Below, one piece after another: positions 4,047-24,590 of a stretch of 64,000 nucleotides of DNA (position 1 is the first letter of the stretch; each line of letters begins with the position of its first letter). Origin of the DNA: Nitrosococcus halophilus Nc 4 (GTDB taxonomy: Bacteria > Pseudomonadota > Gammaproteobacteria > Nitrosococcales > Nitrosococcaceae). The position numbers were made by a program, and so were the translations under genes. Below the pieces are notes generated by a model. That model saw only the letters and a list, made by a program, of their open reading frames with translations, made no database searches and was not told the origin of the DNA. Location: the NCBI RefSeq assembly GCF_000024725.1, contig NC_013960.1, forward strand, positions 3,210,001-3,274,000, read 5' to 3'.

Positions 4047-5409
4047 ACTCTCGCGCCATTACCAAAATGGAGGTTGGGAGGTAGAATGGGCCACCACGTT
4101 GTCACAAGCGCGCTCCATTATTCTGGAGCAGCGCCTCGATCCGCTTCTCATTCTCTCAGACATGAGCCTGCCAGATGGCAACGCCTTGGATCTTATGGAA
4201 GCCGTTCAGGGACAGCATGCCCATGCGGAATGGCTGTTTCTCACCGGCTATGGCAGTGTTCCTGATTCGGTGCGAGCCCTCCGGCTTGGCGCTTATGATT
4301 TTCTTGAAAAACCCTGTGAATTAGAGCACCTAGATTTAGTGGTGGCTAGCGCTGCCCGTAGTGCCCGTGCCCAACGGCGCTTGCTTTATCAAGTCCAACA
4401 ACAACATCGCCAATATTCCTCCCAAGCCTTTGTAGGTCGCAGCCAAGCGGCTCAGGAGGTCCGCAAGCTGTTGGCCAAACTCACCGAAGTGCCTTTTAGC
4501 GCCCTCATTATTGGCGGCGAAACCGGGACCGGCAAAGGCCTAGCTGCCCGGATCCTGCACTACGGGGGGGCTCGGGTTCAATATCCCATGGTAGAGCTTA
4601 ACTGTGCCGCATTGCCCCGGGAATTGCTGGAATCAGAGCTTTTTGGACACGAGGCAGGGGCCTTTACAGGGGCCAAAACTCGCCATCCGGGCCTTATTGA
4701 ACAGGCCAATGGGGGAACTTTATTTTTGGATGAGATCGGTGAAATGCCCCTGGACCTCCAGGCCAAGTTGCTCAAGGTGATTGAAGACCGTCGAGTACGC
4801 CGCCTTGGCGGCAGCAAGGAGATCCCTGTTGATGTGCAGATCCTAGCAGCCAGCAACCGGGATTTGGAACAGATGGCTAAAAATGGGGATTTTCGCAGTG
4901 ACCTGTATCATCGCCTCAGCGTTTTCCGCCTCAATCTACCGGCACTGCGGGAAGTCAAAGAAGACTTGGACGAACTCGTGCCTTTGTTTGTCGCCGAATT
5001 CAATGCCGAAGCAGGTCGACAGGTTAAGATTATCCCAGAGAAAGTTTGGGCGCGGCTTCGTGCCCATGATTGGCCCGGCAATGTGCGTGAGTTGCGTAAC
5101 GTAGTAGAACGGTGCGTGCTTTTTTCTGAGGATGCCGTTTTCCCTGAACAGTGGCTCCAACTGCCGGGGCAAACGAGTCCTCCAGTCGGGCCCTCACTGA
5201 CCGCGAACGATAATCAAATTTGCCTTCCTTTAGATGGGAGCATGGTGCTTGAGGATATGGACCGTTACATTATTGAAATGGCCCTTAAACGCAATGACTA
5301 CAACATTGCCGCTACCGCCCGCGCTCTAGGAACCACCCGGGAAACCTTGCGTTACCGCATTCAAAAACATGGTCTCAAGCCCTCCAAGTTATTATTTTCT
5401 CGAGGCTAA
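3997..5409 (+). CDS. NtrC-family sigma-54-dependent response regulator
   Basis: A 470-residue activator that turns phosphorylation by the upstream kinase into open-complex formation by sigma-54 RNA polymerase. Receiver domain 1-115: acidic pair at Glu9-Asp10, phospho-acceptor Asp55, Thr83 and Lys105. AAA+ domain about 145-380: Walker A GGETGTGKG, the sigma-54 contact loop GAFTGA at 221-226, Walker B LFLDEIGEM. A Fis-type HTH closes the protein (NIAATARALGTTRETLRYR). I chose the ATG at 3997 because the receiver fold begins exactly there; the frame continues upstream into the kinase gene but that part has no fold. The regulon is unknown; neither the DAHP synthase nor the pyrophosphatase downstream has an obvious -24/-12 site. 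Confidence 0.9.
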   Translation: MRATLLIIEDEILLGTELSRHYQNGGWEVEWATTLSQARSIILEQRLDPLLILSDMSLPDGNALDLMEAVQGQHAHAEWLFLTGYGSVPDSVRALRLGAYDFLEKPCELEHLDLVVASAARSARAQRRLLYQVQQQHRQYSSQAFVGRSQAAQEVRKLLAKLTEVPFSALIIGGETGTGKGLAARILHYGGARVQYPMVELNCAALPRELLESELFGHEAGAFTGAKTRHPGLIEQANGGTLFLDEIGEMPLDLQAKLLKVIEDRRVRRLGGSKEIPVDVQILAASNRDLEQMAKNGDFRSDLYHRLSVFRLNLPALREVKEDLDELVPLFVAEFNAEAGRQVKIIPEKVWARLRAHDWPGNVRELRNVVERCVLFSEDAVFPEQWLQLPGQTSPPVGPSLTANDNQICLPLDGSMVLEDMDRYIIEMALKRNDYNIAATARALGTTRETLRYRIQKHGLKPSKLLFSRG

Positions 5410-5458
5410 TATGTCATAATTAAAATAATACTCTCCCCTAAGGCTGGGCTAGAAGACC

Positions 5459-6598
5459 ATGATTATTATCTTACAACCCAATACGGATAAAAATTCCGAA
5501 GAATACCGGGAAACTCTGCGCCACCTTTACAATCTCCCTAATATCATTATCCGAGAGCACCAAGAAATCGGGGTACAGCAGGTGCTCACGGAGCTTTATC
5601 TAATTGGAGAAACCAGCGCTATCGATACTGAAGAGATAGCCCTTTTGCCTGGCGTGGAGCGGGTTGTTCGAGTTTCCGAAGAATATCGGATCTTGGGGCG
5701 GCATAAAGATGAAACCCGCTCTAGCCACTTTGAATACAATGGGGTTCTCTTTAGCCAACATAGTCTCCATGTCTTTGCCGGGTTATGTGCCGTGGATAGC
5801 CGGGAACATGTTGAGCTGATGATGCAGGCCTTGCAGGCCAATCACCAAGTGTGCGCCCGCATGGGCGCTTATAAACCCCGTACCAGCCCCTATGCCTTTC
5901 AAGGCCTTGGCACAGCCTGTCTTCCATATGTGTTTGAGCTGGCTGGCAAATATGGGATCAAGGTCATTGCCATGGAGGTGACCCATGAATCCCATATTCA
6001 TGAGATTGATCAGGCCTTGAGCAAAGCGGGTAATCCAACTGGCGTCATGCTGCAGATTGGGACTCGCAACACCCAAAATTTCGAATTATTGAAGATCGCA
6101 GGGCGCCAGCAAAAATACCCCATTTTACTTAAACGAGGTTTTGGCATTACTTTGGAAGAGTCCCTTAACGCCGCTGAGTATCTGGCCAGCGAAGGCAATC
6201 GCCGGGTGATCTTCTGCCTTCGAGGGATGAAAACCAACGCCGGTGATCCCCATCGCAATTTTGTGGATTTTGCCCATGTCCCCGTCGTCAAGCGCTTGAC
6301 CCGAATGCCGGTGTGTATCGATCCCTCCCACTCGGTGGGCTCCCGCGCTCAGTCCCCTGACGGAATCATGGAGGTCATGCATGTCACCGCCCAAGGGATC
6401 ATCGCCGGGGCAAATATGGTATTGGTCGATTTTCATCCTGCTCCCGAGAAAGCTTTGGTCGATGGTCCCCAAGCGTTACTGCTCGAAGAATTACCGCGTT
6501 TTTTAGAAGATGTCGCCATTGCCCGCGAAGCTTATGAAAAGCGGGTCGCCCTATTTGCCCAACCTTTACCTCGCAACCCTCTCCAAGCAGCCTTATAG
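5459..6598 (+). CDS. DAHP synthase-like protein (type I-beta), divergent
   Basis: Resembles 3-deoxy-D-arabino-heptulosonate-7-phosphate synthase, the first shikimate-pathway enzyme (PEP plus erythrose-4-phosphate). Residues 1-80 match the ferredoxin-like regulatory domain of the Thermotoga type; the barrel follows, with [11 protein letters not shown] (138-148), [15 protein letters not shown] (199-213), DPSHSVG (288-294) and [15 protein letters not shown] (326-340). Metal ligands Cys110, His291 and Asp335 are present. Two usual key residues differ: the acidic ligand in the IEVH motif is Asp324 (VDFH), and the CERG motif reads CLRG (253-256). It may be a specialised paralogue or have altered substrate use. 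It lies between the two-component pair and the pyrophosphatase on one strand with short gaps. Confidence 0.75.
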
Positions 6599-6606
6599 TC
6601 TTTTTC

Positions 6607-8610
6607 ATGCCTTTTTCCTGGATACCCCCCCTGGCAGGCGCTTTCGGCTTATTAGTCGCCTGGGCCGTCTATGCCATGATCAGCCGCTTACCGTCAGGAG
6701 AAGGCAAAATCCTTGAAATCACCCGCGCCATTCAGCAAGGCGCCGAGGTATTCATCCGTCAAGAATATCTGGTGCTAGCCGGATTTACTGGACTGGTGTT
6801 TGGGAGTCTGGTGACTTTTTTAAATATCGAAACGGCGCTGGCTTTCCTCCTCGGGGCCATCAGCTCTGCTACTGCGGGGTTTATCGGCATGCGTACAGCC
6901 ACCCGCACCAATGGCCGTACTGCCGTAGCTGCCCATCATCAAGGCGCAGCAGCAGCCTTGACCACCGCTTTTTTTGGGGGGTCAGTTATGGGACTCACCG
7001 TCGCTTCCCTGGGATTGCTAGGTCTAGGTGGCCTTTACCTGGCCTTTGCCGATAATCCAGAAACTCTACGTGCCCTAAATGGTTTTGGAATGGGGGCTTC
7101 TATAGTGGCCCTCTTTTCCCGGGTGGGAGGCGGTATCTTCACTAAAACCGCCGATATGGGGGCCGATCTAGTAGGCAAACTTGAGATAGGAATCCCAGAA
7201 GACGACCCCCGCAATCCTGGCGTGATTACCGACAACGTCGGGGATAATGTGGGGGATATCGCCGGAATGGGCGCGGACATTTTTGAATCCTATTGCGGCT
7301 CCATCATTGCCGCTATTGCCATTGCTTCTACCATGACTGCTACTGCCATCGCCCCCTTGGGCAGTCAATCCCAACTATTGTTCCTGCCCCTAGCCCTTTC
7401 TGCGGGAGGCCTAGTTGCCTCTATTGTGGCCATTATCATGGTGCGGGGGTTTGCCGCTAAAGCTCCTGAGATGGCGCTGCGCCTGGGTGTCGGCACCGCC
7501 ACGGTGTTATTTATAGCCATTGCTTGGCTCATTATCGACCTTGCTGATATGGCTATACAGCTTTGGTTGACCGTCCTTGCTGGGGCCTTGGGAAGCCTGA
7601 TGATCGGTTTGGCTACCGAATATTACACTGAGCGCCGCCCCATTCGCTGCATTGCTGCTGCTGGAGAAACGGGACCAGCCACGGTGATTATTAAAGGGCT
7701 GGCCGTAGGCATGACCTCCATGGTAATACCGGTACTCACCTTGGGAGGGATTATTCTCGCCGCCACCTATCTCACGGGTCTTTATGGGGTTGCCCTTGCG
7801 GCTGTGGGTATGTTGGCCACGGTAGGGATTGTCATGGCGGTGGATGCCTACGGTCCCATCGCAGATAATGCCGGCGGAATTGCCGAGATGGCTGGCATGG
7901 GACCCCAAACCCGTCAAATCACCGATACCCTAGATGAGCTGGGCAATACCACAGCGGCTATTGGTAAGGGCTTTGCTACCGGTGCCGCCGCCTTAGCCGC
8001 TTTGGCACTGATTAGCGCTTATGTCCAAGTGGTGATCCTCCAGATTCCGAACTTTATGCTCTACATTACCGATCCTTTGGTATTGGTCGGGATGTTTATT
8101 GGAGGACTGCTCCCTTTTTTATTCAGTGCCCTCACGATGACTGCGGTGGGAGAAGCAGCAGGAGAAATGATTGTGGAAATCCGGCGTCAATTTCGGGAAA
8201 TCCCCGGCTTACTCGAAGGCAAAGCAAAACCGGATAATGCCCGCTGTACCGCAATTGCTACCCGTGCTGCCCTTAAGCGGATGATCCTGCCTAGCTTACT
8301 GGCGGTGATGGTCCCTCCCCTGGTGGGGTTTACCCTAGGCCCCTATGCCCTAGGTGGGGTTTTAGGCGGAGCACTATTGACGGGAGTGATGCTTGCCCTA
8401 CTGATGGCCAATACTGGAGGTGCCTGGGATAATGCTAAAAAATACATCGAAAAAGGTCATTTAGGGGGAAAAAATTCCCCTGCCCATAATGCCTCCATTG
8501 TAGGCGATACAGTGGGTGATCCTTTTAAAGACACGGCAGGTCCTTCACTTAATATTTTAATTAAAGTGGTGGCTATTGGTAGTCTTCTCATGGCTCCCTT
8601 CTTTCATTAG
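6607..8610 (+). CDS. hppA: Membrane-bound pyrophosphatase, ion-pumping
   Basis: A 667-residue integral membrane PPase that couples PPi hydrolysis to cation pumping across the inner membrane. The PPi/Mg site is complete: [19 protein letters not shown] (199-217), [12 protein letters not shown] (413-424), and the C-terminal DNAKKYIE and [15 protein letters not shown] motifs. About 15-16 hydrophobic segments are visible. The residue after GNTT is Ala450 ([12 protein letters not shown]), the signature of potassium-dependent enzymes; potassium-independent ones have Lys there. Potassium dependence is therefore inferred; whether H+ or Na+ is pumped is not decided. The start is 9 bases after the DAHP synthase stop with no strong ribosome site, and the 3' end overlaps the convergent DUF5995 gene by 4 bases. 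Confidence 0.93.
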
Positions 8611-9392
8611 GAAGGTTGTATCCAAGCACTCACCTTGCCTGATTTATCCTTCAAAATATCGATGATTTCAGGTACTGTGCCCCTTTCCCCTAAGCGAACC
8701 AAGCGTAACAGGGTCATACCAGACAGGCCGGGATCCTGAATGATCTTCCCCTGCATAGCTACTTTTTTATCCAATTGATCCAGTTCCTGCTGCCGTTCGG
8801 TTTCACTGAGAGGGGCCAGTTGTTCTGCTACCCTCCAAGCCCTATCCCGGGATTTATTGAGACTAAACCCTGCGATCTTTTCATCTACCTCCCCTACTAC
8901 CCGGTCCAGAAATCCGAGCAACGGCCATACTTGGGTCAATTCTTCTTCCACTCCATCTACCGTGGACACGAGGATTCCATTGATTTTGTCGAAATCCCCT
9001 TTAAGGTCTGGCAATTGCTCCCCTGGACTAGTTTCCGCTGCAGTAATACCTAGATCTAAATTGATGTGGGCATTACTTCCTAGCAACAGATGTTGCAGTA
9101 CAATTGGCCACCACTGTTGTGCAGCATCAAAGGCTACTTTCCAAGCCTGGGTAATGGGAAGACCCTGTTGATAATTGTTGAAAGCTTTTAGGTAACGGTT
9201 GGCAAAAATGACATCAAACCGTTCCATCCGCTCTCCAGAATCGAAAATCCCGGCTTCGATACCCTTTTTCACATTGAGGGTCACTTCACGATACAAAGCC
9301 GGAAAATATCCCAACCGGCTCCTGTTGCGGTGGGCCCAATCAGTGATCCGGTCCAGTTCATTAATGACGTCGTCAATGGTGGTGGGAAGCAT
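8607..9392 (-). CDS. DUF5995 family protein
   Basis: A 261-residue soluble, mostly helical protein. The N terminus ([17 protein letters not shown], then [18 protein letters not shown] and [14 protein letters not shown]) matches the DUF5995 pattern as I know it. The family has no firm biochemical role. No signal peptide or membrane segment. The last third is charged and may form a helical tail. The gene is monocistronic and convergent with hppA. Family call is moderately sure, function unknown. Confidence 0.7.
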
Positions 9393-9470
9393 AGATATTC
9401 CTTCCTATAGGGGGTTTCTTCTTCTCTCTATGTTTTAGTTGCTTTTTATATATTTTTCACTTATTAAGTT

Positions 9471-9497
9471 TCTTTATTAGAGAGAGATATAATATTA
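9471..9497. repeat. Left copy of a direct repeat flanking the AT-rich cassette
   Basis: Reads TCTTTAT, five bases, then AGAGATATAATATTA. A second copy, TCTTTAT, seven bases, then the same 15-mer, lies at 12510-12538. The pair brackets the three-gene AT-rich segment. The TATAAT inside each could also be a -10 box, so this is either the scar of an insertion or a shared promoter element. Confidence 0.55.
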
Positions 9498-9583
9498 TCT
9501 TTATAAAAAACTACTGTCATTGTTCAAAATTCACCAGGAACAGCACCATCCAAAATCTTAAAAGGATATTTATTATTCATTTT

Positions 9584-9611
9584 TAAAATTGAGAAATATT
9601 TCTCAATTTTA
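9584..9611. repeat. Perfect 28-bp palindrome, AT-rich
   Basis: A two-fold symmetric sequence centred between 9597 and 9598; its core is TTGAGAAATATTTCTCAA with four to five more paired bases on each side. As RNA it makes a hairpin with AT-rich flanks on both strands, so it could be a bidirectional terminator between the DUF5995 promoter region and the cassette, or a binding site for a dimeric protein. Confidence 0.6.
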
Positions 9612-9614
9612 TCT

Positions 9615-9712
9615 ATTTAATTCATATTTAAATCATAAATCAATGATAAATGATAAATGATAAAATATGTAACCCTTATTTAATTCACATTTAACTAATA
9701 ATAAATGATAAG
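9615..9712. repeat. AT-rich direct repeats upstream of the propeller gene
   Basis: Two 17-mers (ATTTAATTCATATTTAA at 9615-9631 and the same with one base changed at 9678-9694) each precede ATGATAA units. The heptamer AATGATA occurs three times in tandem at 9642-9662 and once more near 9703. This explains most of the 422-base gap between the DUF5995 gene and the propeller gene. Repeats of this kind often bind regulators; no clear -35/-10 pair was found. Confidence 0.5.
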
Positions 9713-9814
9713 GGAATAAGATTTTGAACTGGAAGTCCGCTGAAAGTCACATACTGAAGCGATTCCAAGGGATTAAAAAGCGAATAAGAAATTAAGAGTT
9801 GAGGAAACTTTTCA

Positions 9815-11134
9815 ATGAATAAATTTGCCTCTAATTTACTATTGGCATTGATATGTTTACCGACGCTGTCTTTAAGTCAAGCTAAAGCAGATGAACACCA
9901 AAATGTTTATAATAAATATCTACAACCTGTGGTAACCGCTATCGATTATCACACCCGTATGATATATCTTCTTAACTATGAAGAAGACAAAATAATAACC
10001 ATAGACCCTTTCTTTATCGAAGGTTGGCCAGCTGATCTTCCACTGCAGCATACGATGGTATTACCGGAAGGGGATAGATTTTATGTGACCACCGATAATA
10101 CGGAAAATCATCCCTCGTATATCATCGCGTTGAAGGTTAATGAAATTGACTGGGATAATGGAACGGCGGAAGTACTCCTAGATTCGTTGTTGCCGGTAGA
10201 TGTTCCAAACACTCCGGCAGAATTGCCTTTTGTAGAATCCATCAACAATAACCAAGCCGTTCCTAACTGGCTATTGGCTCCGTCTACCCAAATTCACGGC
10301 CCCACATGGTTACCCTATTCAGATTTTGTCTACTTCACCGATTGGACGGGGGACAAGGTACGCGTTATTAATTACAAAACTAATGAATTTTCCGATGTCG
10401 ACCCTATCAGCATCCCCGGATACACCGAACAAACACATGGCATCATGTTTAATAAGTCGGGAACCCTAGGGTTGGGAACAGGGTATTTCTTTGATAATAG
10501 CGTTATTGATTTGTATAAAGCTAATAGAGAAACCGGCCAAGTGGAAGCCGTAAAACAAATCATGCTAGGTAATGAAAAACAGCATGCGGCTTTTTCACAT
10601 TATGTATTTTGGTTGGATGAACGCTATGCCATCACTGCCTCAATGCAATTTGACAAAACCTCTTTAACACCGTCCACTACACGTAGGATCATTCCACCGA
10701 GCGTATGGTTGATTGATGCCTGGGAAGGAACCGCCACTAGAATTATCAGGCATACCAACCATGTTAATGGGCATGGCATCTTTCGTTCTGCATCCGATAT
10801 TGCTGTTGTTGGAAACAAACTCTATATCGCAGAAGAAGACTCGATTGATCACACCTTTGCTGATGATGGCTATGTTTCAGTCTTTGATATAAGCAGCCGC
10901 TATCGGCCACGGTTTATAAAAAGATTCAAACCAGGTGAGGATTTTCCTGAAGGCTTTGCTGTTGCCCACACCCTGAGTCCAACGGCGGATAACCGATATT
11001 TGCTACTGGCAAGCTGGGTTTCGGGGTACATCATCAAAATTGATACCTTGACGGACACCGTCGTGAAAGTGTTCGGTCCCGGTGACGGCCTCGTAATGCC
11101 ACATGGCTTGTATGCCGCGGGCGGTATTCGTTAA
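9815..11134 (+). CDS. Secreted beta-propeller protein with seven blade-entry histidines
   Basis: A 439-residue exported protein: signal peptide 1-25 (cut near AKA), then seven weakly similar blades, each opening with a His and followed by a D/N-x-Y/F-(V/I)-x-strand pattern: His79, 161, 208, 257, 320, 385 and 430. Such His residues face the central channel in propellers; in nitrous oxide reductase seven of them hold the CuZ cluster. The gene is first in an operon with an SCO copper chaperone, and GAGGAAAC sits before the ATG. A known parallel is the copper enzyme methanethiol oxidase, encoded next to SCO1/SenC, but this protein lacks the motifs I know for that family. No enzyme activity is assigned. 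AT-rich codon use differs from neighbours. Confidence 0.75.
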   Translation: MNKFASNLLLALICLPTLSLSQAKADEHQNVYNKYLQPVVTAIDYHTRMIYLLNYEEDKIITIDPFFIEGWPADLPLQHTMVLPEGDRFYVTTDNTENHPSYIIALKVNEIDWDNGTAEVLLDSLLPVDVPNTPAELPFVESINNNQAVPNWLLAPSTQIHGPTWLPYSDFVYFTDWTGDKVRVINYKTNEFSDVDPISIPGYTEQTHGIMFNKSGTLGLGTGYFFDNSVIDLYKANRETGQVEAVKQIMLGNEKQHAAFSHYVFWLDERYAITASMQFDKTSLTPSTTRRIIPPSVWLIDAWEGTATRIIRHTNHVNGHGIFRSASDIAVVGNKLYIAEEDSIDHTFADDGYVSVFDISSRYRPRFIKRFKPGEDFPEGFAVAHTLSPTADNRYLLLASWVSGYIIKIDTLTDTVVKVFGPGDGLVMPHGLYAAGGIR

Positions 11135-11149
11135 TCACTGATTGTTGAA

Positions 11150-11197
11150 TGCACCAACCGGCCTATATATTTTCTAAAGTTAGGCCGGTTGGGTGCA
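11150..11197 (+). terminator. Long hairpin between the propeller and SCO genes
   Basis: TGCACCAACCGGCCTA pairs with TAGGCCGGTTGGGTGCA (16 pairs, one bulged G) around a 15-nt loop, 16 bases after the propeller stop. No T-run follows, so it may work as a processing or stability element that lowers expression of the two downstream genes, or as a partial terminator. Confidence 0.6.
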
Positions 11198-11246
11198 GCA
11201 CCGGCAATACAATCACAATAATTGACTAAGGAAGAATAACCTAGAA

Positions 11247-11825
11247 ATGAAAAATAGCTTCTTTGCAGTCATTATGCTTCTACTGTTTACCCCAGTCAAT
11301 ATAACAGCTGCAACCATTGTGCTGAGGAATCCCGCGCCTTTACAAAAGGAATCGATGGCCTACTTAAGACAAGGAAGTGAAAGCAACAGTGATCAATGGA
11401 AATTGGTTGTCTTTGGCTTTACGCATTGTAGCGATATCTGTCCCATGTCGCTGGCAAATCTTTCCATGCTGATGGAAGCTGCAGCAGAAGAACAAATCAA
11501 AATAGATGGAATTTTCGTGACAGTCGATCCAGATAGAGACACAAATGCGGTCTTAGCCGACTATACCAAAAAATTTGGGTCCAATATTTCCTATTTGCGC
11601 CTGCAAGGCGAAGATCTAAAACGCTTTAAAAGTACTTTCGGCGTAGAAGCTGTTTTCTATACAAAAAATATAGGAAATAGGTTCCACTACCAGGTTGATC
11701 ACAGTAGTACCGCCTTTCTAATTGATCCCGAAGGTAGAATTAGAGCGCTGTTCGATGCAGTGGAAGACGCAGGTGATATCGCGAAAATGATCCATGAGAA
11801 GGGAACATTTTTTAGCCATGAATAG
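11247..11825 (+). CDS. SCO1/SenC/PrrC family copper-binding thioredoxin-fold protein
   Basis: Periplasmic copper chaperone or thiol reductase; SCO proteins deliver copper to CuA-type sites or other cuproenzymes. 192 residues with an N-terminal hydrophobic signal segment (1-21). Copper ligands are intact: Cys61 and Cys65 in FTHCSDICP and His152 in VDHSSTAFLID. The core DPDRDT and the thioredoxin strand order fit the family. It lies between the seven-His propeller and an unknown exported protein; the latter starts 8 bases inside this gene. The context suggests it metallates the propeller, which is inference. No cytochrome oxidase gene is nearby. Confidence 0.88.
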   Translation: MKNSFFAVIMLLLFTPVNITAATIVLRNPAPLQKESMAYLRQGSESNSDQWKLVVFGFTHCSDICPMSLANLSMLMEAAAEEQIKIDGIFVTVDPDRDTNAVLADYTKKFGSNISYLRLQGEDLKRFKSTFGVEAVFYTKNIGNRFHYQVDHSSTAFLIDPEGRIRALFDAVEDAGDIAKMIHEKGTFFSHE

Positions 11826-12447
11826 GAAAGTGGCGCTAATAATTTTTGTTATATTGGCAGACACTGCCCCTGTCTTTGCCATGAACAACTACGATGATCC
11901 TCGAATTCTACTATCTTTCAAAGATAAATCCTTAACACCTGAGCTTGATATATTGCGCGTTAAAGCGAAGATCTCATCGGATAATCAGCTGATATTTGAA
12001 GTCAAAACAAGAGGAGAACGGATTAACGGGGAAACGGGGGATTACTTCTTATTACAGCTGATTAACGGGAAGTCTTATACTCTCCTCGCCCCTATAAATA
12101 AGACAAAGGAAGATAAAGTTTTAGTGTATGAGAGTACCCCCCAATCTAAAACTAACACACCCTCCTCCCTGTCCAAAAAGTTAAAAAAATTGAGTCCAAA
12201 AGCAGATTTCAGTACGAGACGCATACCCCATGGGATCGAGTACTTCATATCTATGGATTGGATCAATTTTGGCAATGACTTCAGCTATGATGCCTATACC
12301 GCCCAAGCGAGCATACAGGGAGATACTCTAAGCATCGATGAAATATACGATCAAGCAGGAAAGGGGCGCAAAGAAGAGAAACGATTTTCCGCCATTACAT
12401 TACTCAACAAACTCTGTACGACACGTAAAATCATTCTAACCGAATAA
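11818..12447 (+). CDS. Exported protein of unknown function, third gene of the cassette
   Basis: A 209-residue protein I do not recognise. Residues 1-21 make a signal peptide ending in VFA. The mature part is hydrophilic, with alternating beta-like strands (LDILRVKAKISSDNQLIFEVKT, DYFLLQLINGKSYTLLAPI), a basic loop (LSKKLKKLSPKA), and a charged C terminus. It has no cysteine in the mature part except one near the end (KLCTTRK) and no heme or metal motif. I take the ATG at 11818, which overlaps the SCO stop by 8 bases and has AGAAGGGA upstream; a start at 11794 is possible but would place charged residues ahead of the signal. Likely partner of the propeller and SCO proteins by operon structure. 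Confidence 0.65.
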   Translation: MNRKVALIIFVILADTAPVFAMNNYDDPRILLSFKDKSLTPELDILRVKAKISSDNQLIFEVKTRGERINGETGDYFLLQLINGKSYTLLAPINKTKEDKVLVYESTPQSKTNTPSSLSKKLKKLSPKADFSTRRIPHGIEYFISMDWINFGNDFSYDAYTAQASIQGDTLSIDEIYDQAGKGRKEEKRFSAITLLNKLCTTRKIILTE

Positions 12448-12509
12448 GCATCCACAAAAGCTACAGCGCTAGCCATGGACGGCTTTAAGGCATTTGTATG
12501 CTCTTAGTA

Positions 12510-12538
12510 TCTTTATACTTGAAAGAGATATAATATTA
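12510..12538. repeat. Right copy of the cassette-flanking direct repeat
   Basis: Partner of the copy at 9471-9497: TCTTTAT, seven bases, then AGAGATATAATATTA. It lies 63 bases after the third cassette gene and 105 bases before mfd. TATAAT at 12529-12534 could serve as the mfd -10 box, but no good -35 box is spaced from it. Confidence 0.55.
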
Positions 12539-12642
12539 CTTAATTTATAAGGGATAAAAATCAGCATTCCTCCATCCATAGGGGTGAAAAAACCAAACTA
12601 GCTGGTAAAATTTACAAATTTTATAAAATTGCCAGAATTCCC

Positions 12643-15600
12643 ATGTTATCCGCTTTAAATCTTGCCTCTTTATCGCCAGCCTTGCCCCAGCAGGCAGGCG
12701 ATCATCGACATCTTGGCCGGCTTTACGGAAGCAGTTTCGGCCTGATATTAGCAACCAGCGCCCGCCATCACCTGGGGCCTATCCTGGTGATTACGCCAGA
12801 CACAATTACAGCAAACCGGCTGGAGGATGAACTCCGCTTCTATTGCAGCGGCCAACAAGATTTTCCCATCCTTCATTTTCCCGATTGGGAAACCCTCCCC
12901 TATGACATCTTCTCCCCCCATCAAGACATTATCTCCGAGCGTCTGGCCACCCTCTATCAATTGCCCCGGTTAGAGCACGGAGTGCTGATCGTCCCAGTAT
13001 CCACTTTGATGCAACGCCTTGCGCCCCGGGAATACCTAGAAACCCATGGCCTATTAGTGGCAACCGGCGATCGCCTTCACTTGGAAACTTGGCGAAAGCA
13101 ACTGGAAAAGGGGGGATATCGTTGCGTCTCCCAGGTGATGGAGCACGGCGAAGTCGCGTTTCGGGGTTCTCTTATCGACCTGTTCCCCATGGGCAGTAGG
13201 GTTCCCTACCGAATCGATCTTTTTGATGACGAAGTGGATAGCCTCCGTAGCTTTGACCCGGAAACTCAACGTTCCTCAGAACAGGTAGAACAGATCCAAC
13301 TACTACCAGCCCGGGAATTCCCCTTGACAGAAGAGGCCATTACCCAGTTCCGAAAAAATTACCGCAGCACCTTTAGCGGCGATCCCCAACGCAGCCTTGT
13401 TTACCGCGAGGTGAGCGAAGGGACTCTCCCCCCAGGAATTGAGTATTATCTACCGCTTTTTTTCGACCGTACCGATACTCTATTCGATTATCTTCCAGAA
13501 AATACCCTAGCGGTCACCTTAGAGAGGGTCCACCCAGCAGCTGACACCTTTTGGAAAGAAATCAGCGATCGCTATGAGCAACGTCGCCACGATTTAGAAC
13601 GTCCCCTGCTCAACCCCCAGCAACTCTACCTTCAAACGGGACAGCTCTTTACCGCCCTTAAAACTCTCCCCCGGATCAGCCTGCAACCCTCTGAACTAGA
13701 GGAAAAAGCAGGTCATCAAAATTTTGCCACCGAAGCGCCTCCCCAACTCACGATCAATGCCCGCGCCTCTCAACCCTTGGAAACCCTCAACCGGTTTATA
13801 GAAAATTTTGAAGGACGGGTATTATTTGCCGCCGAAACCACCGGGCGTCGGGAAACCTTACGGGAACTGCTCAAAGACAGCGGAATCCAGCCTCACCCCT
13901 TTGAAAATTGGGAAGCTTTTCTCCAAGATAAGGAACGCTTTGGGATCACCGTAGCACCGCTGCAACAGGGCTTACTGCTGGGAAAACCACAGCTTGCGGT
14001 GATTGCCGAGCCTCAATTGTTCGGCGAGCAAGCCATGCAGCAACGCCGCCGCAAAGGGCGTACCCGGGATACGGATGCAGTGGTCCGGGATCTGGTGGAG
14101 CTTTCCATAGGCGCCCCGGTGGTCCATGAAGAACATGGTGTGGGCCGCTATTTAGGATTGCAGACCCTGGAAGTCGGGAAAGTCCGCACTGAATTTATGG
14201 CGCTGGAATACGCCGATGGGGACAAACTCTACGTTCCCGTCTCCTCCCTTCACCTGATTAGCCGTTACACCGGTGCTTCCCCCGAAGCGGCTCCCCTGCA
14301 TAAATTGGGCTCCGGCCAATGGGAGCGGGCCAAGCGCAAGGCCCGGGAGCGAGTCCGGGACGTAGCCGCCGAGCTACTGGCTATTTATGCCCAGCGAGCG
14401 GCGCGGAAAAAGCCCGCTCTACCTCCTCCCGATTCCCACTATGCCGCCTTCGCTAGGGACTTTCCTTTTGAAGAAACCCCAGACCAAGCCGATGCCATTG
14501 AGGCGGTGATTGCTGACCTCACTTCAGAGAAACCCATGGACCGTCTCGTCTGTGGGGATGTGGGTTTTGGTAAAACCGAAGTGGCCATGCGGGCTGCCTT
14601 TATCGCCTCCCAGGCAGGCAAACAAGTGGCGGTGCTCGTACCCACCACGCTCCTGGCCCAGCAACACCATCAAAGCTTTAAAGATCGTTTTGCCGATTGG
14701 CCAGTGCGGGTAGAGGTCATGTCCCGCTTCCGCTCCCGCAAAGAACAAGAAACTATAGTCAATGGCATTGCCGATGGCCGGGTGGATATTGTGATTGGCA
14801 CCCATAAACTGCTACAGGAAAACATCCACTTCAAGGATCTGGGACTGGTCATTATTGATGAAGAACACCGGTTTGGAGTCCGACAAAAAGAACGAATGAA
14901 GGCCCTGCGGGCCGAGGTGGACGTACTCACCTTAACCGCGACCCCTATTCCTCGAACTCTGCATATGTCCCTTTCAGGACTTCGGGATCTTTCCATTATT
15001 GCCACCCCACCGGCGCGCCGCCTGGCTATTAAAACTTTTGTACGGCAGTGGGATGATAGTCTCCTCCGGGAAGCTTTGCTGCGGGAAATCAAACGAGGGG
15101 GGCAAATTTATTTTCTCCACAATGAAGTGGAAAGCATCGAAAAAATGGCCCACCGGGTTCAAACCCTCTTCCCCGAGGCCAAAGTGGGCGTTGCCCACGG
15201 TCAAATGCGGGAACGGGAGCTAGAACAGGTGATGCTAAATTTTTACCACCGGCGCTTTAATGTCCTGGTTTGCACCACTATCATCGAAACGGGGATTGAT
15301 ATTCCTAGTGCCAATACCATCATCATCCATCGAGCCGATAAATTTGGCCTGGCTCAACTTTATCAGTTGCGTGGACGGGTGGGACGCTCCCACCATCGGG
15401 CCTACGCTTATTTGATTGTCCCTCCTCGCTCGGTGATGACCGCAGATGCGGTCAAACGCCTAGAGGCCATCGAGTCCCTGGAAGAACTAGGAGCCGGTTT
15501 TACCCTGGCCACCCACGATATGGAGATCCGAGGAGCCGGAGAACTGCTGGGTAAAGGCCAAAGTGGACAAATGCAAGAAATCGGTTTTAGCCTTTACAAT

Positions 15601-16119
15601 GACTTACTGGAGCGGGCGGTCAATAGCTTAAAATCTGGGCAAACCTTGGATTTGGAGCAGCCTACAGAACATGGTCCAGAGGTCGATCTCCATGCCCCCG
15701 CCCTCATTCCGGAAGATTACCTTCCTGATGTGCATACCCGATTGGTGCTCTATAAACGGATCGCCACCGCCAAAAGCAACCAAGAACTGAAGGAACTCCA
15801 GGTGGAGATGATTGATCGCTTTGGCTTATTGCCAGAGGCCACTAAGACTTTATTTGCTATCCATGAACTTCGCCTGAAAGCCAGTGAAATCGGCATTCGC
15901 AAAATCGAGGCAAGTACCCGCGGCGGCCGGCTCCACTTCCAACCAGAGCCTAACGTGGATCCCATGGCAATCATTAACTTGATACAGAAGCAACCTAGCG
16001 TCTATAAACTAGATGGCCAGGAAAAACTCCGCTTTATCCAAGAACTGCCGGATACCCAGGCGCGCTTAGAGGCCTTAGAAAGACTGCTTAAGGTATTAAC
16101 CATGAAAAAGGCAGCCTAA
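12643..16119 (+). CDS. mfd: Transcription-repair coupling factor
   Basis: DNA translocase that removes stalled RNA polymerase and recruits UvrA to the lesion. 1158 residues, close to the usual length. Order: UvrB-homology region (to about 350) with the FPDWETLPYD segment, the RNA-polymerase interaction domain (PVVHEEHGVGRYLGL near 490-505), the helicase core with Walker A GDVGFGKTE, DEEH box (IIDEEHRFGVRQKE), SAT-like TLTATPIPRTL, motif VI QLRGRVGRS, the TRG-type motif after it, and a C-terminal UvrA-masking domain. It follows the AT-rich cassette and returns to the base composition of the rest of the window. Start is the ATG at 12643; ribosome site is weak. Confidence 0.97.
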   Translation: MLSALNLASLSPALPQQAGDHRHLGRLYGSSFGLILATSARHHLGPILVITPDTITANRLEDELRFYCSGQQDFPILHFPDWETLPYDIFSPHQDIISERLATLYQLPRLEHGVLIVPVSTLMQRLAPREYLETHGLLVATGDRLHLETWRKQLEKGGYRCVSQVMEHGEVAFRGSLIDLFPMGSRVPYRIDLFDDEVDSLRSFDPETQRSSEQVEQIQLLPAREFPLTEEAITQFRKNYRSTFSGDPQRSLVYREVSEGTLPPGIEYYLPLFFDRTDTLFDYLPENTLAVTLERVHPAADTFWKEISDRYEQRRHDLERPLLNPQQLYLQTGQLFTALKTLPRISLQPSELEEKAGHQNFATEAPPQLTINARASQPLETLNRFIENFEGRVLFAAETTGRRETLRELLKDSGIQPHPFENWEAFLQDKERFGITVAPLQQGLLLGKPQLAVIAEPQLFGEQAMQQRRRKGRTRDTDAVVRDLVELSIGAPVVHEEHGVGRYLGLQTLEVGKVRTEFMALEYADGDKLYVPVSSLHLISRYTGASPEAAPLHKLGSGQWERAKRKARERVRDVAAELLAIYAQRAARKKPALPPPDSHYAAFARDFPFEETPDQADAIEAVIADLTSEKPMDRLVCGDVGFGKTEVAMRAAFIASQAGKQVAVLVPTTLLAQQHHQSFKDRFADWPVRVEVMSRFRSRKEQETIVNGIADGRVDIVIGTHKLLQENIHFKDLGLVIIDEEHRFGVRQKERMKALRAEVDVLTLTATPIPRTLHMSLSGLRDLSIIATPPARRLAIKTFVRQWDDSLLREALLREIKRGGQIYFLHNEVESIEKMAHRVQTLFPEAKVGVAHGQMRERELEQVMLNFYHRRFNVLVCTTIIETGIDIPSANTIIIHRADKFGLAQLYQLRGRVGRSHHRAYAYLIVPPRSVMTADAVKRLEAIESLEELGAGFTLATHDMEIRGAGELLGKGQSGQMQEIGFSLYNDLLERAVNSLKSGQTLDLEQPTEHGPEVDLHAPALIPEDYLPDVHTRLVLYKRIATAKSNQELKELQVEMIDRFGLLPEATKTLFAIHELRLKASEIGIRKIEASTRGGRLHFQPEPNVDPMAIINLIQKQPSVYKLDGQEKLRFIQELPDTQARLEALERLLKVLTMKKAA

Positions 16120-16156
16120 ACTTAATGAATGGGATTGCCAGGGAGTCATCTCCCGC

Positions 16157-16558
16157 ATGCTGAGATACAAAACAATCATGGTAGCGATTGGCATCAGCCT
16201 TCTAGCGACTGCCTGCACCTACCGATCCTCTCCTAGAATCGAGCAGGCCACTGAACAGCTAGCTTATGTGACTGGAAGCTTAGACTTCCGAAATGTGATG
16301 TTCAGCCAGGTCTTTATTATTGCGGTTGATGGCAAGCGATTAAAATTTTGGCAAAACCAAGTGGCGGTCACTCCCGGCTCCCATCGCTTTACAGTAGGCT
16401 ATCGCTATCGGGATCCTGGAGATCACCCTACCCGAAAGACCACCATTGCCTTTACTGCTATCGCCGGTAGAGATTATCGGTTGGAATATTATTATGGGCA
16501 AATTTTAGTCCGGGATAGGAACAATTATAAAATTATCGCCCAGCAACGTCTCCCCTAA
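16157..16558 (+). CDS. Small lipoprotein, unknown function
   Basis: A 133-residue protein with a type II signal peptide: lipobox LLATAC with the acylated Cys at residue 20. The mature part is beta-rich (KTTIAFTAIAGRDYRLEYYYGQILV), resembling small periplasmic lipoproteins that carry a PEGA-like domain with the sentence pattern value-x-PG-x-H-x-F-x-V (TPGSHRFTVGY). The second Met (codon 8, 16178) is an alternative start. It follows mfd by 37 bases on the same strand. No specific role can be named. Confidence 0.7.
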   Translation: MLRYKTIMVAIGISLLATACTYRSSPRIEQATEQLAYVTGSLDFRNVMFSQVFIIAVDGKRLKFWQNQVAVTPGSHRFTVGYRYRDPGDHPTRKTTIAFTAIAGRDYRLEYYYGQILVRDRNNYKIIAQQRLP

Positions 16559-16593
16559 ATAACCACTTCTGTCTTCCTAAGAAACTCCCAGGC

Positions 16594-16878
16594 TTATCCA
16601 TACTTGGTGAGAATTCGCGTCAACTCTGACAATTTTTTCTGGACTGCGTCATTGAGCAAGCCCTCCTCATCAATTTCATTTTCGATAGCACAGGCCATCA
16701 TTTCACAAAAGGCTTTATTCACAGCGGTGCGAGAAGCGGCTAATTGCTGGGCAATGGATTCACAGCGTTCGCCTTCCTCGATCATACGACGGATCGCCCG
16801 GATCTGGCCCTCCACGCGTGCCAGCCTGGAAAGCAGTCCTTTCTTACGTGCGTCTTTCGAGCGGTCTAAATCAGACAT
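16594..16878 (-). CDS. CsoR/FrmR-family repressor, probable sulfur (persulfide) sensor
   Basis: A 94-residue all-helical repressor of the CsoR/RcnR/FrmR family (DUF156): LLSRLARVEGQIRAIRRMIEEGERC is the hallmark N-terminal helix. Cysteines are Cys39, Cys58 and Cys63. The His that binds Cu(I) in CsoR is replaced by Ala64, so copper sensing is unlikely; a thiol-based sensor like CstR fits better, since the divergent genes are YeeE/YedE sulfur transporters. I take the ATG at 16878 (AGGAG ahead of it) rather than an earlier in-frame start, because conserved sequence begins here and the operator lies between. An 18-bp operator at 16912-16929 overlaps its likely -10 box, implying autorepression. 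Confidence 0.85.
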   Translation of the reverse strand: MSDLDRSKDARKKGLLSRLARVEGQIRAIRRMIEEGERCESIAQQLAASRTAVNKAFCEMMACAIENEIDEEGLLNDAVQKKLSELTRILTKYG

Positions 16879-16911
16879 GAAGATCTCCTGGAAACACTTC
16901 TGAATACATAT

Positions 16912-16929
16912 TATACAGGCGGGGGTATA
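16912..16929 (-). promoter_or_regulatory. Operator of the CsoR-family repressor gene
   Basis: On the minus strand the site reads TATACCCCCGCCTGTATA, identical to 17239-17256 on the plus strand. TATAC/GTATA arms flank a C-rich core, the general form of CsoR-family operators. The last TATA is part of a good -10 box (TATAAT), so a bound repressor would cover the promoter; a weak -35 (TTATTT) is 17 bases upstream. Confidence 0.75.
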
Positions 16930-17238
16930 TAAAAATAAGCCTGTCATACGCCCGTATTGTATTCGCGGTTACTCAGAACAAATGGTACTCTTTCCATTGG
17001 ACCGGCCCCATTTTAGACGCTACCAGTGCGTTAATAAGTTTTGAGGGGTTGACTTTCCTGGCCTCTCATCCTTCCTCTTTGTGCCCAAAGCGCACGCTAA
17101 CAGCAAGAAAACGTCACATTCCTCCCAAAATTTTTACCGAGATACTTGAACATCAGGACAAGCTCCAGATAATCTAGCGTTAGTCTTGGGCACGTTTTCC
17201 TGAGTATAGAAAACCAAAGGTGGATCTTATTAATTTGA

Positions 17239-22787: not shown

Positions 22788-24590
22788 TTAGTGGAGGGGA
22801 TCGCGCTGCTTTGGTGTCAGTTGCTCTTTCCAGGGCTGAGGCAAATTCTGTACCCAACCATTATAGACCACAGGAATAGGAAGCAGACCTTGCCCCCCCA
22901 TCCCTGGATTGGCGGTAATAGTGTCATCCATGGCGGTCTCCGGAGTGGCGGTCAACAGGATCCTGCCTACCACTTTAGCATCGGAAGGATCTTCATCGCC
23001 GTTCGGATCGATATCCACTACCTGAAGCGTGTTCGCCGCCTGGCTGCTGATATAAGCATAGTATCCTCCACCCTTCTTAGCCCCGAATTGCACCCCATGG
23101 CAGCCGGCATCGCAAGGCAGGGAGGCCACCAGTTCATCCTTTCGGGTGTCCACGATGGTAATGGTGTCGGTCAAAATATTGGCTGTCACCATGGCGATAC
23201 CATCCGGGCTCACCGGGGTCTGGATCGGCAATCCGCCCACCGGGCCGGTGATCTCTCCCGTGAGCGGATTGTAATTCTGCAAGAGATTAATGGTTTTCAA
23301 CACCTCACCTGTTTGAGTTTCAATCAAAGTGAAGGTGCTATCAAGAAAATTCGCCACATAATACTTGCTAGAATCAGGCATCATGCCAGTAGCAATGGGA
23401 TGGGCTTCTAAGGTGCCGGTGGGGACGATCTCTAGGACTTCGTCCCTCCAAAAATCATAGATCGTCGAGTCCCCCGTGAAAACGTTGGGGGTTACCATGG
23501 TCATGCCATCATGTCCCATCCAGTGGGCATGGGGCCCTGGCCTGCCAATATCGATCTCCCGCTCCACACCGTTGGCGAGAGGGGCCAACTCAACCACCGA
23601 TTCTTGGTCATCGGAACCATTGAGAGAGACGTGTAGTTGGTCGGTATCTACCCGGGTCATCACATGGGCTGGCGCTTCGCCCACCGTTATTCGGTCTATC
23701 AACTGGCCTGTTTCTCGCTCGAATAGGGTCAGCTTGCTATCAAACCATTCGGTGACATAAATCAGATTCTGGTCCCGATCAGTCCACATATTGTGGGGAT
23801 TGTTCATCTCGATATGGGGCAAAGAGACTTTCCGTGTGACCTCCCAAGTGGTGGCATCCACGGCCGTTGCAGTCCCTGGCTTTTCTTTATCCGCCGTAGT
23901 TTCAAACTGGGTATCCACCCAGACTTCTCCTACGCCTTCTCGGGATGGAGTTAAGAGGGCAGGTAATTCAGTATCATTGCCATATCGGGCGTTTAACACC
24001 TGGGGTAGATTGACTACTGCGCCGCCAGCGATGCGTACGTTAACATTCGGATAGCTGACATGCCAGGGCTCCGTGGAAGCAAAATTCTGCCAATTGGCAG
24101 GTTCAGTCAGGATAAAAAATCCTCGCAGCAGCCGGGTAGCCAAATCACTGCTGGTGGGTACCGTGATCCCATTGATGAGCGTAATGTTTTCACCAAGATC
24201 TAGCCCTTCTGTTGTGGGATCGTCCACCACTACGGCTCCCAACATGTAGGGATGAATCTGGCAAAAAAAGACATACAACCCCGGGGTCGTTAACTCTACC
24301 TCCGCACTTCCCTTTTGAGGGTCAGTGTCAAAGGGCATATTGGCAGCACCAGCAGGATAGAGCAGGCTGGTCATAGTGTGAACCGTATTCGATTCCCCCT
24401 TGAACCGGACCTCTACCCCAGGAGTCCCCACACCCAACGAACCCGCACCTGCTACCGGACCGGCAGCATTTCTGAACCAACGACCTGGCCCATCATTGAG
24501 TTCAAAGACAGTCCGATTACTTCCCTTATCCCCCAAGGCTAAGCCGGGGAAAACGAATACCAAAATAAGTACATATTCAATCATTCTCAT
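22788..24590 (-). CDS. Secreted cupredoxin / YVTN beta-propeller fusion protein
   Basis: A 600-residue exported protein: signal peptide 1-20, a type-1 copper domain to about 125, a linker, and a beta-propeller from about 250. The copper ligands are His71 (NTVHTMTS), Cys110, His113 and Met116 (FCQIHPYM), a Cx2Hx2M loop. The propeller has YVTN-like strands (LIYVTEWFDSKLTLFE, YYVANFLDSTFTLIE) and His at blade entries: 259, 266, 309, 354, 356, 360, 397 and 498, plus Cys493 and Cys497. This resembles nitrous oxide reductase built in reverse, though the sequence is not NosZ. It may be a periplasmic copper enzyme or electron carrier. Monocistronic. Confidence 0.8.
   Translation of the reverse strand: MRMIEYVLILVFVFPGLALGDKGSNRTVFELNDGPGRWFRNAAGPVAGAGSLGVGTPGVEVRFKGESNTVHTMTSLLYPAGAANMPFDTDPQKGSAEVELTTPGLYVFFCQIHPYMLGAVVVDDPTTEGLDLGENITLINGITVPTSSDLATRLLRGFFILTEPANWQNFASTEPWHVSYPNVNVRIAGGAVVNLPQVLNARYGNDTELPALLTPSREGVGEVWVDTQFETTADKEKPGTATAVDATTWEVTRKVSLPHIEMNNPHNMWTDRDQNLIYVTEWFDSKLTLFERETGQLIDRITVGEAPAHVMTRVDTDQLHVSLNGSDDQESVVELAPLANGVEREIDIGRPGPHAHWMGHDGMTMVTPNVFTGDSTIYDFWRDEVLEIVPTGTLEAHPIATGMMPDSSKYYVANFLDSTFTLIETQTGEVLKTINLLQNYNPLTGEITGPVGGLPIQTPVSPDGIAMVTANILTDTITIVDTRKDELVASLPCDAGCHGVQFGAKKGGGYYAYISSQAANTLQVVDIDPNGDEDPSDAKVVGRILLTATPETAMDDTITANPGMGGQGLLPIPVVYNGWVQNLPQPWKEQLTPKQRDPLH

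Follow-up and report, generated by a model that had tools for sequence, protein, structure and literature searches.

On balance we consider it probable that a three-gene operon of Nitrosococcus halophilus Nc 4, lying between a DUF5995 gene and mfd, is shared horizontally among ammonia-oxidising bacteria and encodes a periplasmic metalloenzyme (P1), a dedicated SCO-type copper chaperone (SCO) and an accessory protein (G3), these names, in gene order, being labels of this analysis. The operon stands in a window of 64,000 nucleotides from this genome (G000), which is compared here with three further Nitrosococcus species (G001, G002 and G003). By analogy with known copper propellers, P1 is best read as a new family of periplasmic copper-cluster oxidoreductase. 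Copper chemistry dominates the metabolism of ammonia oxidisers, in which the P1 operon offers a concrete candidate for a copper enzyme as yet uncharacterised; no description of the operon was found in the available portions of open-licence papers on Nitrosococcus and Nitrosomonas europaea.

Alignment of 34 P1 homologues gives 72 invariant positions, of which six are His. These six and one Asp are the ring residues of Table 1, unchanged in 34/34 sequences, and in the AlphaFold model of P1 (predicted local distance difference test score, pLDDT, 74; predicted template modelling score 0.80) each lies at the start of the innermost strand of its own blade when the strands assigned by DSSP are read as seven blades. 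P1 is thus modelled as a seven-bladed propeller in which every blade presents one invariant His or, in a single case, Asp. A further histidine, H257, invariant in the first six sequences, is excluded from the ring because it is Tyr in 10/34. Other invariant polar residues are D94, Q159, Q206, R270, K335, E340, E341, D342 and R439, the last of these ending the chain nine residues past the final ring His in all 34 proteins. That the ring binds copper is suggested by the SCO partner and by the position of P1 paralogues among copper genes, one in G000 between CusB/CusA-type (CusA/CzcA) efflux genes and a copper P-type ATPase, another in G003 among multicopper oxidases. The multicopper-oxidase genes beside the G003 paralogue (locus L023, 3462-13798) include one of 987 amino acids with a propeller-like rear half, and in N. 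marina (L033/L035, 1-2830) related genes lie about 3 kb away from its P1 operon.

The second gene meets PF02630 at 108.6 bits (cut-off 22.8) and keeps the metal-binding residues, its CxxxC motif and distal His being invariant in 17 of the 17 sequences aligned, which places it in the SCO1/SenC family. G3 matches no Pfam family. It is modelled (pLDDT 78.9) as a beta sandwich, for which Foldseek returns mainly antibody domains, with E not below 0.012, and no sequence relative in the PDB falls below E 0.8. The best non-antibody fold match, the ethylbenzene dehydrogenase gamma subunit 2ivf_C (Z 8.0, root-mean-square deviation (rmsd) 4.2, 142 residues aligned), is tied with immunoglobulin rows, at a Z level that can reflect a merely common arrangement. 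In the ethylbenzene dehydrogenase gamma/CBM9-like sandwich the heme ligands are Met and Lys; the G3 alignment holds no invariant Lys, and just M1 and M22 as invariant Met. Signal-peptide-like N-termini, recognised by reading, suggest that the cassette proteins are exported.

Nitrous oxide reductase, NosZ, is a seven-bladed propeller. As judged by reading fetched sequences, NosZ and the clade III enzyme L-NosZ (NF052460) share with P1 a conserved His before the second strand of most blades, and differ from it in a C-terminal CuA cupredoxin domain, the motif of which can be read in two L-NosZ sequences and is missing from P1. Membership of P1 in NosZ/L-NosZ is rejected, as it lacks this domain and scores 11.1 bits against an NF052460 cut-off of 700 (9/34 members match at E up to 10, the best at 0.0031); the P1 fold comparison has no NosZ chains among its rows, an absence that is no test of likeness. 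Thiocyanate dehydrogenase (8q9x, 5f75), whose propeller tunnel is described as holding a trinuclear copper centre (PMC9456337), has the same seven-bladed fold (8q9x: Z 28.4, rmsd 2.9, 323 aligned), and the residues listed for it, H135, H136, H206, D314, H381, H437, H482 and H528 among others (PMC6504805), likewise provide six His positions and one Asp, one ring residue per blade by spacing. By the same spacing, which is not a superposition, Asp is third and His fifth in thiocyanate dehydrogenase, whereas His is third and Asp fifth in P1, and the HisHis pair and twin-arginine (Tat) signal reported for the dehydrogenase (PMC5328954) contrast with a single His and, by reading, a Sec-like signal in P1. 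In a profile search for P1, no thiocyanate dehydrogenase was listed among PDB sequences at E up to 10.

The third comparison is with methanethiol oxidase (SBP56), the product of mtoX, which PMC5739008 gives as a periplasmic copper enzyme of 435 amino acids, co-located in many bacteria with SCO1/SenC and mauG. SCO is likewise present in the P1 operon, where the third gene, G3, has no Pfam family, and the SBP56 structure 2ece aligns with P1 at Z 29.6 (rmsd 3.4, 336 aligned). However, the proposed copper ligands of methanethiol oxidase, His89, His90, His140 and His412, differ from the P1 ring in number and pattern. PF05694, the SBP56 family, is unmatched in P1 (E up to 1), in the family listings of the 34 members and in eight genomes including G000, and P1 is for this reason rejected as an SBP56 member. 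The well-aligning folds of SBP56 and thiocyanate dehydrogenase, the setting of mtoX beside SCO1/SenC and mauG and the one His or Asp per spacing unit of thiocyanate dehydrogenase would all suit a sulfur-compound oxidase, i.e. a periplasmic copper propeller with an SCO helper that oxidises a thiol or thiocyanate. We find this doubtful for P1, given the missing SBP56 match and the different ring order, and since its close relatives are found nearly all in ammonia oxidisers, not in sulfur oxidisers, and the AurF neighbours described below indicate nitrogen chemistry.

Among 59 relatives P1 matches only the four Nitrosococcus genomes, and no plasmid gave a tblastn match. A motif scan over 84,980 species, which detects only proteins carrying one of two short motifs, returned 36 loci: 29 in Nitrosomonadaceae (61 to 76% identity), comprising 28 from Nitrosomonas, Nitrosospira and Nitrosovibrio, among them Nitrosomonas europaea (L036), and one metagenome-assembled genome placed in the family, and seven more remote (37 to 40%) in Streptomyces, Actinoplanes and Burkholderiales including Pseudoduganella. 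Across 125 Nitrosomonadaceae genomes P1 is matched in 41 (39 strongly, two as short fragments with a stop) and amoA in 67. Fourteen assemblies have P1 without amoA; since a draft of N. europaea is one of them, the missing amoA may be an assembly gap. P1 is therefore frequent, not universal, in ammonia oxidisers, and its distribution is nearly confined to them; it combines a complete metal-like ring with a private predicted copper chaperone.

P1, SCO and G3 are genetically coupled. As scored by tblastn, all three occur together in 27/29 Nitrosomonadaceae loci (26 contiguous) and in 4/4 Nitrosococcus genomes, and SCO adjoins P1 in 28/29 of the former, once with an intervening gene. The exceptions are L047, with an extra gene between P1 and SCO, L040, where the contig ends after SCO, and L034, where P1 stands alone. 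In 10 Nitrosomonas loci (L026, L027, L031, L033, L035, L039, L040, L041, L048 and L050) the operon has a porin-like neighbour, the only one tested matching PF13609, and a different protein of 450 amino acids stands beside it in five Nitrosospira loci. Nitrosocyanin (NcyA), a small cupredoxin with no propeller, is likewise linked to ammonia oxidisers and is a copper protein, as P1 putatively is. It is termed specific to ammonia-oxidising bacteria (PMC6967387) and reported in nearly all of their genomes (PMC7285500), a wider presence than that of P1.

Downstream of P1, all seven remote loci (L055-L061) carry a gene of the AurF family, with PF11583 scoring 162 bits in both loci tested, whereas none of the 29 Nitrosomonadaceae loci has one. 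The P1 homologue and the AurF-type N-oxygenase thus form a conserved pair and possibly an undescribed biosynthetic module; in Pseudoduganella a glutamine amidotransferase gene (Pfam match tested in L061) lies between them. An ammonia monooxygenase-family enzyme is found in 0/7 of these genomes. This bears on a view in which P1 would be a non-catalytic protein that binds or senses copper for storage or delivery to ammonia monooxygenase, with SCO and G3 relaying the metal. The SCO partner gene and the siting of the paralogues in clusters for copper efflux or with multicopper oxidases fit such a role, but we think it unlikely, as the remote homologues have no such monooxygenase to supply and the many invariant polar residues beyond the ring resemble an active site more than a storage site.

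In the mechanism we propose for P1 as a copper enzyme, SCO would load copper into P1, the ring would hold copper as a cluster, of the kind that nitrous oxide reductase and thiocyanate dehydrogenase have in their propeller channels, and electrons would pass to a periplasmic cytochrome. The substrate would most likely be a small nitrogen oxide or hydroxylamine compound, yet this is a guess; a nitrogen compound is favoured because the homologues outside ammonia oxidisers all adjoin an N-oxygenase, and where homologues occur likewise favours nitrogen-oxide over sulfur chemistry. The enzyme that converts nitric oxide to nitrite in ammonia-oxidising bacteria is described in PMC6967387 as not yet identified. 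We raise, as a tentative possibility, that P1 is the first of a new His6Asp class of copper-cluster propellers, with nitric oxide, hydroxylamine or some other nitrogen oxide as its substrate in the periplasm of ammonia oxidisers, either as one of several interchangeable enzymes converting nitric oxide to nitrite or as a nitrogen-oxide detoxifier. If so, N-hydroxylated metabolites would be the targets of the same cluster in the AurF-linked homologues of Streptomyces, Actinoplanes and Pseudoduganella. As a copper enzyme, P1 would give the ring-of-histidines propeller a further use besides those in NosZ, thiocyanate dehydrogenase and methanethiol oxidase.

Several results weigh against P1 as such an enzyme. 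The P1 model is built from six sequences and its pLDDT is below 50 in five stretches; generic lactonase and YVTN propellers score equal to or higher than the copper enzymes in the fold comparison (1l0q, Z 30.6); hhalign of P1 against L-NosZ is poor, with a probability of 11.6%; a strong P1 match is present in just 25/67 amoA-bearing Nitrosomonadaceae genomes; and SCO and G3 are found in none of the seven remote loci within the flanks covered. Because of the fourth, P1 is accessory and no core enzyme of ammonia oxidation, and because of the last, this SCO chaperone is not tied to the whole P1 family. The generic propellers, as top fold matches, would accord with P1 being an ordinary YVTN-type structural propeller whose His are structural, SCO then serving a different copper protein, for example the sNOR oxidase, and other SCO/SenC genes of ammonia oxidisers are indeed tied to sNOR, adjoining norSY (PMC4940428; PMC3772326). 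This is improbable: six His invariant at equivalent blade sites across proteins whose identity to P1 ranges from 35 to 90% are unexpected for structural residues, SCO stands beside P1 throughout the Nitrosomonadaceae loci save one, and no norSY-like genes were recognised on reading the open reading frames (ORFs) of locus L018.

In the trees, Nitrosococcus groups with N. mobilis and its relatives, inside the beta-proteobacterial group, with support of 98/98 for P1, 91/90 for SCO and 92/85 for G3. For P1, a separate beta clade is not rejected at the 0.05 level by an approximately unbiased (AU) test (p 0.0855), and the case for transfer therefore rests on branch support. Transfer of the cassette in one piece between ammonia oxidisers of the beta- and gamma-proteobacteria is likely, though not proven. 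The foreign, low-G+C character of the three genes as one unit is supported by their composition (G+C 0.433, 0.416 and 0.403 against a mean of 0.509, s.d. 0.043, for 39 window ORFs), which bears out the A+T-richness noticed in a sequence-only reading of the region. That reading had also described co-directional genes that overlap or nearly so, and indeed all three are on the forward strand, the last two overlapping and the first two 112 bases apart. It had held that an identical location in all relatives would speak against insertion; gene order is kept in 4/4 Nitrosococcus genomes, at two different chromosomal places. In G001/G002 a tRNA-Leu and an RNase R-like gene are found about 800 bases away from the operon, and restriction-modification-like genes come after it (names by reading), surroundings that are typical of acquired DNA. 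DNA identity to G001/G002 spans window 9697-12448 and to G003 9534-12447; the moving block is about 9584-12447 and includes its own palindrome (Table 1).

Table 1. Coordinates, in the 64,000-nucleotide window, of the operon and of the elements around it.
Feature	Position	Strand	Description
Left 15-mer AGAGATATAATATTA	9483..9497	+	outside the block that moves with the genes; G003 copy with 1 mismatch at P1 -360
Palindrome	9584..9611	.	28 bases, perfect; core TGAGAA-N4-TTCTCA; candidate operator of the operon
P1	9815..11134	+	predicted exported seven-bladed beta-propeller (modelled), 439 amino acids; ring H79, H161, H208, H262, D328, H385, H430
G+C-rich hairpin	11154..11192	+	directly after the P1 stop codon
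SCO	11247..11825	+	SCO1/SenC-type copper chaperone (predicted), 192 amino acids; CxxxC (C61, C65), H152
G3	11818..12447 (alternative start 11794)	+	predicted exported beta-sandwich protein, 209 amino acids, no Pfam family; accessory
Right 15-mer AGAGATATAATATTA	12524..12538	+	conserved element 5' of mfd, probable -10 region; not part of the cassette
mfd	12643..16119	+	flanking gene to which the right repeat belongs

The palindrome may act as an operator. Its core lies 5' of P1 with 0-1 mismatch in 4/4 Nitrosococcus genomes (at -225, -205, -127 and -127), has one exact match in the window and, at one mismatch or fewer, two there against 0.26 expected from shuffles; in the 28 beta loci searched it was not found (3 to 5 mismatches). 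Between palindrome and P1, window 9614-9711 holds degenerate short A+T repeats (TTTAATTCAYATTTAA, ATGATAAATGATAAA) that are partly kept in G003. Strong hairpins follow the P1 stop in 12/12 P1-SCO spacers folded (z -2.6 to -5.8, mononucleotide shuffles), their sequence differing between species. The hairpin in the four Nitrosococcus spacers has no clear T run after it, and we therefore interpret it as a stabilising element or a processing site, which may allow an excess of enzyme over chaperone. An Rfam search of window 5000-17000 returned no matches.

The sequence-only reading had taken the cassette for a unit inserted as one piece between two direct repeats. The unit is real, its proposed borders are wrong. 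The repeats themselves are as described, TCTTTAT standing at 9471-9477 and 12510-12516, each followed by a copy of AGAGATATAATATTA identical to the other and in the same orientation. Neither the window nor the whole G000 genome holds a further exact copy, and at one mismatch or fewer the genome has three sites, the two exact ones being this pair. A 15-mer shared between the gaps 9393-9814 and 12448-12642 arose in 1/200 locally composed shuffles, and the match is thus improbable by chance, a verdict tempered by the A+T-richness of both gaps (25% and 34% G+C).

The two copies behave differently across the genus. AGAGATATAATAT is found 5' of mfd in 4/4 Nitrosococcus genomes, and the right 15-mer is there exact in G000 and G003, with one mismatch in G002 and two in G001, although mfd of G001/G002 has no cassette and is neighboured by pgsA-like and uvrC-like genes (names by reading), tRNA-Gly and tRNA-Cys. 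Since it is kept with or without the cassette, the right repeat is mfd's own upstream element and, as its conservation suggests, probably the -10 region of mfd. The left 15-mer is exact at P1 -332 in G000 and has one mismatch in G003; upstream of P1 in G001/G002 the best match has five. In G003, moreover, G3 and the right copy are separated by an additional gene, for an M28 peptidase, and the DUF5995 gene, intact in the window, is reduced there to short remnants (L017, 5505-5660). Given the absence of the left copy from G001/G002, the added gene and the remnants, what lies between the repeats is not conserved as a unit.

That the cassette is a mobile unit of recent insertion with the 15-mers at its ends, as a target-site duplication or recombination scar, is thus most improbable. 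The rarity of such a match in shuffles, the low G+C of the cassette, its changing chromosomal place within the genus and the tRNA-Leu and restriction-modification-like region next to it in G001/G002 would be in keeping with such a unit, but the right copy stands 5' of mfd irrespective of the cassette, the left copy does not accompany it and G003 has an additional gene inside the interval. Nor does any of the four Nitrosococcus genomes show repeats flanking the moved block with none or one at an empty site, or the DUF5995-mfd junction with a single repeat copy that had been suggested as support for insertion. A target-site duplication is accordingly rejected, the right copy being tied to mfd and the left not travelling with the cassette. 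The other suggestion, that both repeats are promoters with a TATAAT box in common, suits the right copy best, given its conservation at mfd, yet a sigma-70 scan, in which sites were about as frequent as in shuffles (11 vs 9.8), lists neither copy. The left 15-mer is unsupported as operon promoter, being missing 5' of P1 in G001/G002 and unlisted in that scan.

Elsewhere in the window, 22788-24590 on the reverse strand encodes a 600-amino-acid protein that combines a cupredoxin-like N-terminus with a His-rich propeller and may be a further copper propeller enzyme; it has weak profile matches to L-NosZ (E 4e-8) and hydrazine synthase beta (E 4e-7) and a short match to copper nitrite reductase.

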